Positions 1 to 27,641 of a DNA stretch of 64,000 bases are shown here, piece by piece; position 1 is the stretch's first letter, and each line of letters starts with the position of its first letter. The DNA comes from Nitrospinaceae bacterium. GTDB taxonomy: Bacteria; Nitrospinota; Nitrospinia; Nitrospinales; VA-1. The translations under genes and the position numbers were made by a program. The notes below the pieces were generated by a model. The model ran no database searches and was not told where the DNA came from. It saw only the letters and a list, made by a program, of their open reading frames with translations. Location: assembly GCA_021604505.1 (NCBI GenBank), contig BQJC01000005.1, forward strand, positions 1 to 64,000, in the 5' to 3' direction.

Positions 1-350
1 CCACGCAAACACATGCGGGGGTTCCATGCCGCATCGGCCTGGTTCCCGTAAAGATCACGCACTTTGTGATGATCGTAGTTCTGCTCGATACGCATCAAAA
101 TGCCGTTACGTACGAACCCGCGAACGCGACACTGATGCGTGTCGTTCGGAGAACAACAGTAGGTGAAAGACCGCTCATACTTGTACTGATCGCGGTACAC
201 TTCCTCCCAGCGCCGATCCGGATACGAATCCAGAGGATTGCCCACCTTAATAACGGGCTTTAACTGCGCTCCAACCTTCTTGCTTGAAAGCGCCATAGCT
301 GTCGCTACACCAGCACTCACCTGCAAGAATTTCCTTCGGTTTAACCTCAT
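1..350 (-). CDS. nxrA: Nitrite oxidoreductase alpha subunit (NxrA), N-terminal part only
   Basis: This is the 5' end (116 codons) of a gene that runs off the left edge. The start ATG (348-350) follows a perfect AAGGAGG ribosome site at 358-364. The protein opens with a twin-arginine (Tat) export signal, RRKFLQ at residues 5-10 followed by an Ala-rich stretch, so it should be exported folded to the periplasm. Residues 65-74 (CCSPNDTHQC) and Cys114 fit the N-terminal iron-sulphur site of type II DMSO-reductase-family molybdoenzymes, in a Cys-x3-Asp-x3-Cys arrangement. From memory this N-terminus matches NxrA of periplasmic nitrite oxidisers, which oxidises nitrite to nitrate at a bis-MGD molybdenum centre. 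Related type II enzymes (perchlorate or selenate reductase) are the alternative. The family is fairly sure and the exact substrate less so, because most of the protein lies outside the window. Confidence 0.8.
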   Translation of the reverse strand, partial: MRLNRRKFLQVSAGVATAMALSSKKVGAQLKPVIKVGNPLDSYPDRRWEEVYRDQYKYERSFTYCCSPNDTHQCRVRGFVRNGILMRIEQNYDHHKVRDLYGNQADAAWNPRMCLR

Positions 351-364
351 AAAGAAACCTCCTT

Positions 365-524
365 AAATTTATATGGCTTCAACTTGAGTTTCATTAAGGG
401 ATGGCTGAATTCCTTCAACCAACCCCGTTACCTCCCAAAACACTAACCGGCGCAAAAAAGCGCCCCTCCACTCTCCTCTCAAATCAATGACGTCCAATCA
501 AAAAGGCAATAACAAACCAAAAAC
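365..524 (-). other. Leader/promoter region of nxrA
   Basis: About 160 bases lie between the nxrA ribosome site and the terminator-like structure upstream. The stretch is purine-rich on the coding (minus) strand and holds a small hairpin at 449-464 (five-base stem GGCGC/GCGCC around a run of six T). I could not pick a convincing -35/-10 pair. No ORF is present. Confidence 0.3.
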
Positions 525-607
525 AAAAAAAGCTCCAAAGCTCAATCAGAGCCCCCGCCACTAGGCGGGGAAGGGAGGGCAGTCCCACTCTGATTAAACT
601 TTGGAGC
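525..607 (-). terminator. Branched stem-loop with U-run, minus strand
   Basis: Read on the minus strand, an outer stem pairs 599-607 with 532-540 (nine bases, GCTCCAAAG) and continues as 588-595 with 544-551 (eight bases). It encloses a GC-rich hairpin (564-570 with 553-559, loop of four) and a short GGGA/TCCC hairpin (573-586). Seven U follow directly (A-run at 525-531). The position suits a terminator for the response regulator gene upstream, or the 3' end of a small structured RNA in the nxrA upstream region. The plus strand lacks a T-run after the stem, so the minus-strand reading is preferred. Confidence 0.65.
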
Positions 608-900
608 CCCATAAAATTTCCACTTTGAAAAATTAAATTTCTTTTCCAACTTTCTTTAAGGGGAGTTTAAGTGGATCGTTCGGAGGATGAAATCAGGAGA
701 AACTGATTATCAAATGGGGGATGACTGCTTTTTTCAGTGGAACAATTCCGATTATTGATTAGGAAAATTCCTACAAAATCACTAACCTGTAAAAAAACAA
801 CAGTATATGAAGCTCTAATGAATGGATTTTATGTGCGTTGCCAGAGGAGAAAAGCAAACCGGCCGTTCAGAGCGGGAAAACCAGGGGTAAAATTGCCGTA
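608..900. other. Intergenic region, no gene seen
   Basis: This AT-rich stretch lies downstream of the response regulator stop. I find no ORF with coding character, no repeat and no clear promoter. It may hold the promoter of a small RNA ending in the structure at 525-607, but nothing in the sequence proves it. Confidence 0.3.
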
Positions 901-1548
901 TTAAATCACCTTATTCAATATTGCATATTGAATGAGTTCGGCATTTGTCTGCATTTTCATTTTTTCAAGGATGTGGCTACGATGGGTGCTCACGGTTTTA
1001 ACGCTCAAAAACAGCTTTTCGGCGATCGCGGTCAGGGAAGCACCGGAAGCCAACAGGCAGAAAACTTGAAACTCCCGATCGGAAAGCATTTCATGGGGTT
1101 GTTTATCCTGGCCGGAAAAATTGAAAGCAATTTTTTCCATAAATTCTGGGCTTAAGAACTTCCCTCCTCCGGCAACCTTACGCACCGCCTGTTTTAATAC
1201 ATCCAGAGGACTGTCTTTTGTTAAATACCCGGAAGCTCCCGCCTTGATATAACGCATGGCAAAATGTTTTTCCGGATAGACACTCAATACGATGATTGGC
1301 AGATCTGGAAATTTAACTTTCAACTCTTTCATATAATCGAGACTCCATTCATCATTCATGCTGATATCCAGCAACACGACATCCACCTTTTCGGTCGTGG
1401 CTTTATCCAAAAGCTCTTGGCCGTTTCCAGCTTCTTCAACAACTTTCAGGTCACGGGTGTCGGAAAAAGCACGGTATAACCCCTCGCGGAAAACCGGATG
1501 GTCATCCGCTACCATGATTCGAATGGTTTCTTTTTTTGTTGTCATCAT
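901..1548 (-). CDS. NarL/FixJ-family response regulator
   Basis: A 215-residue two-component response regulator. The receiver domain (about residues 8-125) has the acidic pair Asp15-Asp16, the phospho-acceptor Asp61 in LLDIS, Ser89 and Lys111. A LuxR/NarL helix-turn-helix (about 155-200, with LSDRE and the KTVSTHRSHILEKM recognition region) binds DNA. Its start overlaps the end of the histidine kinase gene by four bases (ATGA at 1545-1548), so the two are a translationally coupled pair. It is the last gene before nxrA on the same strand, separated by 550 bases and a terminator-like structure. Control of nxr is possible from position but not shown. Confidence 0.92.
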   Translation of the reverse strand: MMTTKKETIRIMVADDHPVFREGLYRAFSDTRDLKVVEEAGNGQELLDKATTEKVDVVLLDISMNDEWSLDYMKELKVKFPDLPIIVLSVYPEKHFAMRYIKAGASGYLTKDSPLDVLKQAVRKVAGGGKFLSPEFMEKIAFNFSGQDKQPHEMLSDREFQVFCLLASGASLTAIAEKLFLSVKTVSTHRSHILEKMKMQTNAELIQYAILNKVI

Positions 1549-3116
1549 TTTGAGTCAAGTTTAATATTAATGGTAACGGTTGTCCCTCCGTTTTCTACTC
1601 CGGCAAACTCAACCTCCCCTCCCCAGATTTGCGCCCGTTCTTTCATGCCCAATAACCCCAGGGAAAGCCCATTGCCGTTTACTTCGTTTTCAGAAATGCC
1701 CTTGCCATTATCCTGCACCCGCATTATCAGGTTTTCATTATGGCCAACGATATCGACGTGAACTTCGCTGGCTCCTGAATGCCGGGAAACGTTTGTCAGA
1801 CATTCCTGAAATATCCTTAAAAGGGTGGTCGATCTTTGTGCATCAACTTTTATTTCAGGTGGCGACGTAGACAAACTGAATTTGACCCCGGTCTTTTCCT
1901 GGAACAGAGTTCCCTGCCAGTCAATGGCTTCCGTCAGGCTTAAGGAATCCAGCACCGGCGGGCGTAATTCCTGGGAAATCTTTTTCACCGCTTCAATGTT
2001 TTTTTCAATGAGGCGGAACATGACCTTCATGTTCTCTTTAACATCCACCTTTTTTTCGGATAATTTATTATCCAGCAGGGAAAGTTCTATTTTTAAGGTG
2101 GTCATTACCTGCCCCAGATCATCGTGAACATCACGGGCGATTCTCTTGCTTTCCTCTTCCCGTACGGAATCGAGTTTATGATACAACTGCCGCAAATGGC
2201 CGCTGTAGACTTCCTTGCCTTGTTCCGCCCGGGTTCGCTCAACAACACGCCCCAACATAATACCGATACTTTCCATCACCTCCATCATCCTTTTATTCGG
2301 CTCCATAGGAACCGTAGAAAAAAACTCCATGACACCGACCGCCTTGTCCTCGATCAAAATTGGAAATCCGAACCCGGAAACCACGCCGATCTTTTCGGAA
2401 AATGTACCTCTCGGGAAATTGGGATCCGCTTTCAGATCTAAAATAAACTGCGCCTTGCCTTGAGCGATAACGCGGCCCGGCAATCCCTCTCCAGGGGCCA
2501 GCAGGTTATGCCGGGTGACTTCGCGGAAATTTTCGAACTTTTTTTTATTATCCAAATACCAGATACCCGAAGGAAACAGGGTTTTCCGGTCTTCCCCCAA
2601 CAAATACAGGTGGCCGACCGGCCAGCCCGTAAATTCACAAATCTTCCGCAGACTGTAGGTGATGGCATCGTCCAGGGAGCGGGACAAATTGGTAAAATAA
2701 GCGAGGTCCCGGTTCAACTGCACATAGCCCGTCTCTTCTTTAAGACGCTGGTTGGTTTTTTCCAGAAGATCACTGCGGTATTTTTCTTCCACCCACCTGA
2801 GATTCACCAAACAGAAATGAGCCGTGAGCCAAACCGTTCCGTTAGCCAATATGCGGTTGAAAATGCCAAGAATATGATTGGAATTATCTGGCGATAAATA
2901 TGCCCCAAGAAACGTTAAAACAGTCGCCAGGAAGGCGTTGACGATAATGAGTCTACGGGATTCCGCCCACAAACCGACTAAAACAAGAGAAATATAAGGG
3001 ACCCCCGCCGAGAAACCCAGAGGCAAAAGAAGATCCAGATAAAAAAAAGTGGCCGCTAGAATCAGGCTTAAAATACTGGATCCCATAAGGGGAAATTTTG
3101 TTTTTTGTAAAACCAT
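1545..3116 (-). CDS. GAF-domain sensor histidine kinase (HisKA_3 type)
   Basis: A 523-residue membrane sensor kinase partnered with the NarL-type regulator that follows it. Residues 12-105 hold three to four hydrophobic segments, with no large periplasmic domain. About 130-290 is GAF-like and may bind a small ligand or sense redox state. The dimerisation domain carries the phospho-acceptor His331 in the ARDVHDDLGQ motif of the NarX/DegS (HisKA_3) class. The ATPase domain shows the N box (Asn442), DNGKGI (469-474) and GLLGMKER (487-494). The input signal cannot be read from the sequence. The gene is divergent from the outer-membrane protein gene at 3554. Confidence 0.92.
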   Translation of the reverse strand: MVLQKTKFPLMGSSILSLILAATFFYLDLLLPLGFSAGVPYISLVLVGLWAESRRLIIVNAFLATVLTFLGAYLSPDNSNHILGIFNRILANGTVWLTAHFCLVNLRWVEEKYRSDLLEKTNQRLKEETGYVQLNRDLAYFTNLSRSLDDAITYSLRKICEFTGWPVGHLYLLGEDRKTLFPSGIWYLDNKKKFENFREVTRHNLLAPGEGLPGRVIAQGKAQFILDLKADPNFPRGTFSEKIGVVSGFGFPILIEDKAVGVMEFFSTVPMEPNKRMMEVMESIGIMLGRVVERTRAEQGKEVYSGHLRQLYHKLDSVREEESKRIARDVHDDLGQVMTTLKIELSLLDNKLSEKKVDVKENMKVMFRLIEKNIEAVKKISQELRPPVLDSLSLTEAIDWQGTLFQEKTGVKFSLSTSPPEIKVDAQRSTTLLRIFQECLTNVSRHSGASEVHVDIVGHNENLIMRVQDNGKGISENEVNGNGLSLGLLGMKERAQIWGGEVEFAGVENGGTTVTINIKLDSK

Positions 3117-26707: not shown

Positions 26708-27115
26708 TCAACCACAGTTCACATTGATGTCAATGGTTCCCGTGTTGGTGATTTTAACTTCGCCGCTGATATCGCCGATAGAATCGCCGCGGCTGAAATT
26801 GCTTTGCTTTTTCAAAACTATAGTTTTTTGTCCCTTGGAAAACTTGTCAGGCATTCCCACGCCTCTTTCGCCTGCCATTCCATGATCATCCGTTGGTCCC
26901 AGAGTGATCGGAACCGTGGTGTAATTGGAAGATTTCCAAATCACCGCATTGGCATTGCCTCTATCTTCAGGATGATTTCCGGAAGCTTCCAGAGTGATAG
27001 AATTGGCGTTTTTACAGCTGGTGGATTGACCCGGTTGAAGTGCCCCAGCAAAAGAAGATGCCGCAAAACAAAGAACAGAAATAGCAACAATAAAAACGAA
27101 TATGAATTTTTTCAT
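26708..27115 (-). CDS. Small secreted protein, unknown function
   Basis: A 135-residue protein starting at the second in-frame Met (MKKFIFVFIV), which gives a clean Sec signal peptide cut after SSFA. The mature part is Gly/Ser/Asn-rich and beta-like, with only two Cys (in TSCKNA near the mature N-terminus and NVNCG at the very end) that could close a disulphide. It resembles small periplasmic or cell-surface beta-sandwich proteins, but I recognise no family. It is a single gene convergent with dnaJ. Confidence 0.65.
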   Translation of the reverse strand: MKKFIFVFIVAISVLCFAASSFAGALQPGQSTSCKNANSITLEASGNHPEDRGNANAVIWKSSNYTTVPITLGPTDDHGMAGERGVGMPDKFSKGQKTIVLKKQSNFSRGDSIGDISGEVKITNTGTIDINVNCG

Positions 27116-27641
27116 AACATGCCCTCCCTTCACCTAGTTAAAAATCAGCCTCTACAAAATTCGATCTCATGATGGTGTTAGAATAAGCCACCTCCTCCCA
27201 GTTTTTAACACCTCAGATTTTCAATTTTTTAAAGAACCAAACCCAAAAATGGGATAATTTTAACTTTGTCTGGTGGTGCGAAACTCATATTCAAGAAATG
27301 AATGCGTATGACCTCAAGCACCGCAAACTTTATCCAGCCTTAAAGACGATTAAATTATACTTCGGAATCCAATCATGTCAATCTATTTTCCTACTTAGCC
27401 TAGGTAATTTCCTACGCAACGATTGATTTGAAAAGGATTAGAAACCTTTGTCGCTCAGAAGAAACCAAGCAACGGCTATCCAAAAAATTTACTCACAACT
27501 TTTTTGAGATGCCTTATAATCAATTAAGGCATTGAAATTAAAGGCTATTATTTATTTTCTGAAAAATAGTATTCCATTCATACAAATCTCCATTGGCAAA
27601 AACAAAAACCCCGCAATCTTAAAGCGAGTAGGAAACAACCC
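27116..27641. other. Intergenic region, no gene seen
   Basis: A 526-base AT-rich gap between divergent genes. Only short ORFs without ribosome sites occur, and I see no strong hairpin or repeat. It must hold the promoters of both flanking genes. Confidence 0.3.

Follow-up and report, generated by a model that had tools for sequence, protein, structure and literature searches.

A conserved leader RNA of one nitrite oxidoreductase operon in Nitrospinota as a candidate repressor of its near-identical partner

No marine nitrite oxidisers are known to be more abundant than the Nitrospinota, whose energy enzyme is nitrite oxidoreductase (NXR). Among regulatory RNAs, those of the RoxS/RsaE type use an exposed C-rich loop to occlude the G-rich Shine-Dalgarno sites of many targets. 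In nitrogen metabolism, NarS of E. coli and Salmonella is a product of the 3'-UTR of narK, and represses nirC by base pairing (PMC8139620). The RNA is annotated between narK and narG. An sRNA from the rhlI 5'-UTR of Pseudomonas provides an example of a bacterial sRNA derived from a 5'-UTR (PMC6786874). With regard to NXR itself, Nitrospina gracilis has two nxrABC operons, the NxrA of which is Tat-exported (PMC3578206), and the nxr paralogues of Nitrospira differ both in their expression and in their sigma-54 regulators (PMC6606698). The leader RNA described here would offer a concrete switch between two almost identical nxr operons.

The window, i.e. the whole stretch of 64,000 nucleotides that was analysed, comes from a Nitrospinaceae genome (G000; an assembly of 3.64 Mb in 14 contigs) and begins at the first base of its contig, C5. 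At this edge lies a 116-codon open frame that leaves both the window and the contig, and that the original prediction took to be a periplasm-facing NXR on the basis of a Tat signal, Cys66-x3-Asp70-x3-Cys74 and Cys114. Alignment locates C65, C66, D70, C74 and C114 in the 116-aa fragment, so that the residues are exactly as stated, and the N-terminus, MRLNRRKFLQVSAG (NRRKFLQ), fits the twin-arginine models TIGR01409 (16.8 bits, cut-off 16.7) and PF10518 (E = 7e-4). Over all of its 116 aa, the fragment shows 94-98% identity to about 20 Nitrospinota loci; identity to the NxrA of anammox bacteria and Nitrospirota is approximately 62%. Against NXR subunit A of PDB 7b04 it gives E = 1.7e-48, compared with 0.006 for ethylbenzene dehydrogenase and 0.02 for NarG; together with the level of identity within Nitrospinota, this value implies that the match to NxrA is not due to chance.

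The phylogeny that the prediction had called for, a maximum likelihood tree of 22 sequences built with full-length relatives and leaving out SerA and PcrA, bears out the assignment. The fragment falls within the Nitrospinota NxrA clade (support 100/100), which groups with the NXR of anammox bacteria, Nitrospirota, Acidobacteria and gammaproteobacterial metagenome-assembled genomes (MAGs), and a further branch with support of 100/100 separates these enzymes from NarG (E. coli), ClrA (Ideonella) and two further type II enzymes, one haloarchaeal and one from Dehalococcoidia. The C-x3-D-x3-C motif is common to all bacterial NXR rows of the alignment, whereas NarG and ClrA have H-x3-C-x3-C instead; the fragment has neither this latter motif nor a position in the NarG clade. 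The nearest full-length relative, from the same genus (1153 aa), is 99% identical across the 116 aa and contains the molybdopterin domain PF00384, a part of the gene that is missing from the window's assembly. Judged by this homology, the gene at the window edge is an ordinary NxrA, the biology of which is already known.

A second nxrA start, of 79 aa and 99% identical to the window copy, is found at the edge of another contig of the same genome, C3. Both C5 (window 1-350) and C3 (G000:C3:1-237) terminate within nxrA, and a search of the assembly for the remainder of the gene and for nxrB recovered only the two N-termini. This fits the collapse of near-identical repeats during assembly, which implies that such MAGs contain more nxr genes than their assemblies show; a survey of Nitrospinota argues similarly about nxr genes (PMC10839748). 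The window copy, which has the RNA upstream, is referred to here as nxrA2, and the other copy (on C3 in the window's genome) as nxrA1. Among the loci checked, nxrA1 is always downstream of one conserved gene (391 aa in G000). Within a genome, the coding starts of nxrA1 and nxrA2 share 93-100% DNA identity, higher than that of either with the same copy elsewhere, yet only 20-45% of the 60 nt before the start are shared. Hence the coding parts appear to be homogenised, while the leaders are kept different, such that nxrA1 and nxrA2 leaders can be distinguished in metatranscriptomes and coding reads cannot. A third, divergent nxrA-like gene was seen in one Nitrospinota MAG (G046:C73:2164 onward, loci L128 and L097; 1153 aa, 55% identity); it groups with the NxrA of gammaproteobacterial MAGs, not with those of Nitrospinota, and the same MAG was singled out in the survey (PMC10839748).

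Upstream of nxrA2, the minus strand of window positions 525-620 has a predicted fold of -57 kcal/mol (z = -9.0), consisting of a long stem around two hairpins. A covariance model of the RNA detected it in nine of the 64 genomes of the order, and a second model, with hairpin A included, returned the same nine among 77 genomes of the phylum Nitrospinota, with ten copies in total, all at E < 1e-11. A weak covariance-model match, G003:C46, was discarded, as the loop is missing from the stretch in which it lies. For the alignment of the loop, gaps in the window sequence (WIN) and L048 were filled with N, which falls in an unpaired column. The nine distinct sequences have standard pairs in 94% of pair cells, and 16 of the 31 pairs have changed on both sides, a number reached by none of 500 shuffles (mean 7.2); sliding the structure by 1-3 columns makes the pairing much worse. 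By hand count, the alignment contains about 26 G-U cells; read from the opposite strand, these would become A-C mismatches. The model also scores far lower on that strand, and the G-U cells imply that the RNA is read on the minus strand, as is nxrA. No family in Rfam 15 scored above its gathering threshold, and the miRNA matches in that search (E >= 0.075) are attributable to chance. Within the open-access literature, text searches turned up no account of an RNA of this kind. On comparative grounds the leader element is regarded as a real conserved RNA, representing a new family without an Rfam match. The features of the locus are listed in the table.

Table. Features of the nxrA2 leader region in the window, with the complementary site of nxrA1 on contig C3 of the same genome
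Feature	Position	Strand	Description
nxrA2, first 116 codons (NXR subunit A)	3..350	-	Tat signal, C66-x3-D70-x3-C74, C114; runs off contig
Shine-Dalgarno of nxrA2	358..364	-	AAGGAGG; complementary to RNA loop only at generic core
U-run straight after RNA stem	523..530	-	intrinsic-terminator-like end; confined to G000 and G022, the window's genus
Conserved structured RNA, nxrA2 leader	530..608	-	20-bp outer stem around hairpins A and B
Hairpin A of leader RNA			GGGA-CUGCCC-UCCC
Hairpin B of leader RNA			CCCCGCC-UAGU-GGCGGGG
Antisense segment of RNA	571..586	-	5'-GGGACUGCCCUCCCUU-3', core ACUGCCCUCCCUU
NarL/GacA-type response regulator gene	901..1548	-	Response_reg + GerE
Sensor histidine kinase gene	1545..3116	-	GAF + HisKA_3 + HATPase_c
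nxrA1 Shine-Dalgarno region	G000:C3:242-254	-	AAGGGAGGGCAGU; perfect complement of RNA core ACUGCCCUCCCUU

The prediction had also placed the two-component pair and the RNA in an nxr regulatory neighbourhood. This holds for the RNA, which in eight of the nine genomes that have it precedes nxrA2 by 55-270 nt, and for the two-component pair in several lineages but not all. Such a pair is found upstream of the RNA in G000, G022 and G002, and others adjoin RNA-less nxrA copies (L020, L042, G007). The genus g7 instead has, upstream of the RNA, canonical sigma-54 sites (TGGCAT-N5-TTGC) and the gene of a sigma-54 activator in divergent orientation; in G001 and G005 this position is occupied by a gene for a 310-aa protein without a Pfam match. 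The upstream regulator therefore changes between lineages while the RNA stays before nxrA2. This argues against the view that the RNA is just an intrinsic terminator for the response-regulator gene and plays no part in nxr control, as could be proposed from the same-strand two-component genes upstream and from the U-run that directly follows the stem in the window and in G022. The U-run is absent after the stem in seven of the nine genomes, and neither a bipartite head with a nearly invariant loop, superfluous for termination, nor the complementarity to nxrA1 would be accounted for; simple termination downstream of the response regulator, with the window gene still being nxrA2, is hence considered very improbable. 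The conserved 310-aa protein, encoded beside nxrA2 at L116:632-1558 and L024:8559-9497 in two genera without the two-component pair, is itself a candidate nxr regulator.

The loop of the RNA, (A)CUUGCCCUCCCUU, is the reverse complement of the nxrA1 ribosome site, AAGGGAGGGCAAG(U), located just before the ATG. RNAcofold, which sees any pairing within a closed stem as a pseudoknot, was uninformative, and interactions were instead scored as the duplex energy plus the opening costs of both partners. All nine genomes yield duplexes of 11-18 nt in the -19 to +1 region of nxrA1, for which the totals range from -10.5 to -23.1 kcal/mol. By comparison, the RNA and the start of its own nxrA2 give -4.2 to +6.6 kcal/mol, and the mean for shuffled leaders is near +1. 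A caveat is that a C-rich loop has some affinity for Shine-Dalgarno sequences in general. In the window's genome, the plain duplex energy is -28.9 for nxrA1, while 683 other ORF starts (104 kb) have a mean of -12.5 (s.d. 3.6), with none better. The exact 14-mer AAGGGAGGGCAAGU (searched as AAGGGAGGGCAAGT) occurs at 17 sites in the 64 genomes, of which nine are nxrA1 starts, four are antisense copies in the RNA and four are inside unrelated genes. The 11-mer AAGGGAGGGCA has five sites in the window's genome, and besides the RNA itself only that of nxrA1 extends to 13 nt; the looser pattern GGAGGGCAN{2,10}ATG was unspecific and was discarded.

A second potential target within the window, the Shine-Dalgarno sequence at 27120-27130, was set aside, because its 11 nt match to the loop is not conserved at the ribosome sites of relatives and is probably chance. 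It precedes a gene (window 26711-27115, minus strand) for a secreted 135-aa protein without a Pfam match, and the match is found in G000 only. Separately, nxrA1 leaders were observed to have a further AAAGGRGG-like site, about 100 nt before the start codon, with a small hairpin after it (e.g. GGGCACGC...GTGTGCC; the C3 leader of G000, L004, L006, L034, L046, L047, L049, L050, L055 and L060), which is possibly another leader element.

The loop and its target vary between genomes. In G000 there is a matched change, with the loop lacking one U and the target one A (ACUGCCC versus GGGCAGU), such that a perfect 13-mer is kept. Paralogous copies of the RNA are found in two genomes of a single genus, G004 and G005 (G004:C27:1468-1546, minus strand; G005:C157:3121-3199, plus strand), each about 160-170 nt before a gene for a secreted protein with a carboxypeptidase-regulatory-like domain; in G004 this is the sole copy found. 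In these paralogues the stem of hairpin A has changed from GGGA/UCCC to GGAA/UUCC, replacing a G-C pair with an A-U pair; the stem is kept, as is the pairing with the target, via one G.U. The loop of G048 also lacks one U, but with nxrA1 unchanged, leaving a one-base bulge, and in G022 there is one mismatch between the loop and nxrA1. The tally is thus one clean compensation (G000), one tolerated change (G004/G005) and two imperfect cases (G048 and G022).

The distribution of the RNA follows that of the nxrA1-type start, which is present in 14 genomes including all nine that have the RNA, while the covariance models found no copy in the other 26 nxrA-bearing genomes. A hypergeometric estimate by hand of this co-occurrence is 7e-6, a figure that overstates the association as the genomes are related, although the nine do span three families. 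Five genomes have the nxrA1 start but no confident match to the RNA (G020, G023, G024, G049 and G053). Four of these also have no detected second nxrA, nxrA2 often being lost in assembly; in the fifth, G023, the RNA is represented only by a degenerate relative.

These observations bear on whether the RNA may instead be a cis-acting element of the nxrA2 leader, such as an attenuator, a stability element or a switch bound by a ligand or protein, with the match to nxrA1 incidental or secondary. Its location is in keeping with such a role, particularly in G005, in which the gap between it and the nxrA2 start codon is a mere 55 nt or so, and the position of the sigma-54 sites in g7 implies that it is probably within the nxrA2 transcript. 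Scanning for sigma-70 promoters produced no match above the chance level. A purely local function would, however, leave unexplained why the RNA pairs poorly with the ribosome site of nxrA2, why the antisense to nxrA1 is its most conserved part, why it is found only in genomes with an nxrA1-type start, and why paralogues exist away from nxrA2. A cis-acting element is accordingly viewed as unlikely. The preferred reading of the locus, assigned a probability of roughly 0.7 on the basis of comparative sequence analysis, is that the window gene is nxrA2, one of two near-identical copies in a nitrite oxidiser of the Nitrospinota, and that its leader RNA acts as a riboregulator of nxrA1. That this new RNA family, carried in the leader of one nxr operon, represses translation of the near-identical other operon is a more specific proposal, and seems rather probable.

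In the proposed mechanism, transcription of nxrA2 would bring the RNA along, whether within the 5' leader or as a short transcript that stops at the RNA's own terminator-like stem. The long stem would present hairpin A, allowing the C-rich loop and the 3' arm to pair with 13-16 nt of the nxrA1 mRNA; if formed in the cell, this duplex would span the Shine-Dalgarno sequence up to the start codon and block ribosome loading. Hence any physiological signal that turned the nxrA2 operon on would turn translation of nxrA1 off. As the duplex is symmetrical, the effect could also run in the other direction, with abundant nxrA1 mRNA capturing the loop and altering nxrA2 expression as a sponge or antiterminator, and in G000 and G022, in which the stem ends in a U-run, its disruption could permit read-through. 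The lack of the U-run in most genomes, and the fact that the duplex covers the Shine-Dalgarno sequence of nxrA1 but no signal of nxrA2, make this reversal a slim prospect. Repression of nxrA1 by the nxrA2 leader, if correct, would constitute an RNA-based isoform switch for a key enzyme of marine nitrite oxidation, kept despite the homogenisation of the coding sequence and the exchange of the upstream regulators.

Comparison with known systems places the components of this locus at different distances from what has been described. The NxrA proteins of Nitrospina gracilis and Kuenenia (PDB 7b04) share the Tat signal, the C-x3-D-x3-C + C FeS motif and the presence of more than one near-identical nxr copy, and nothing in the 116 residues from the window is distinctive relative to them. 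Base pairing at a Shine-Dalgarno site is a functional kind already known; what is new is the RNA family and the unusual design, in which one isozyme gene would act against the other. The use of a C-rich loop on a G-rich ribosome site is shared with the RoxS/RsaE type, but the match of the Nitrospinota RNA continues beyond the generic core and singles out nxrA1. The rhlI 5'-UTR sRNA is comparable as a regulatory RNA that a gene carries in its 5' leader, and different in sequence, fold, target and organism. NarS is unrelated in sequence and fold, such that no kinship is claimed, and derives from a 3'-UTR, whereas the Nitrospinota RNA is located in the 5' leader region of an isozyme gene and is complementary to the beginning of that gene's counterpart. 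Nevertheless, as an RNA from one nitrate-respiration gene region that acts on another nitrogen gene, NarS is the closest working parallel.
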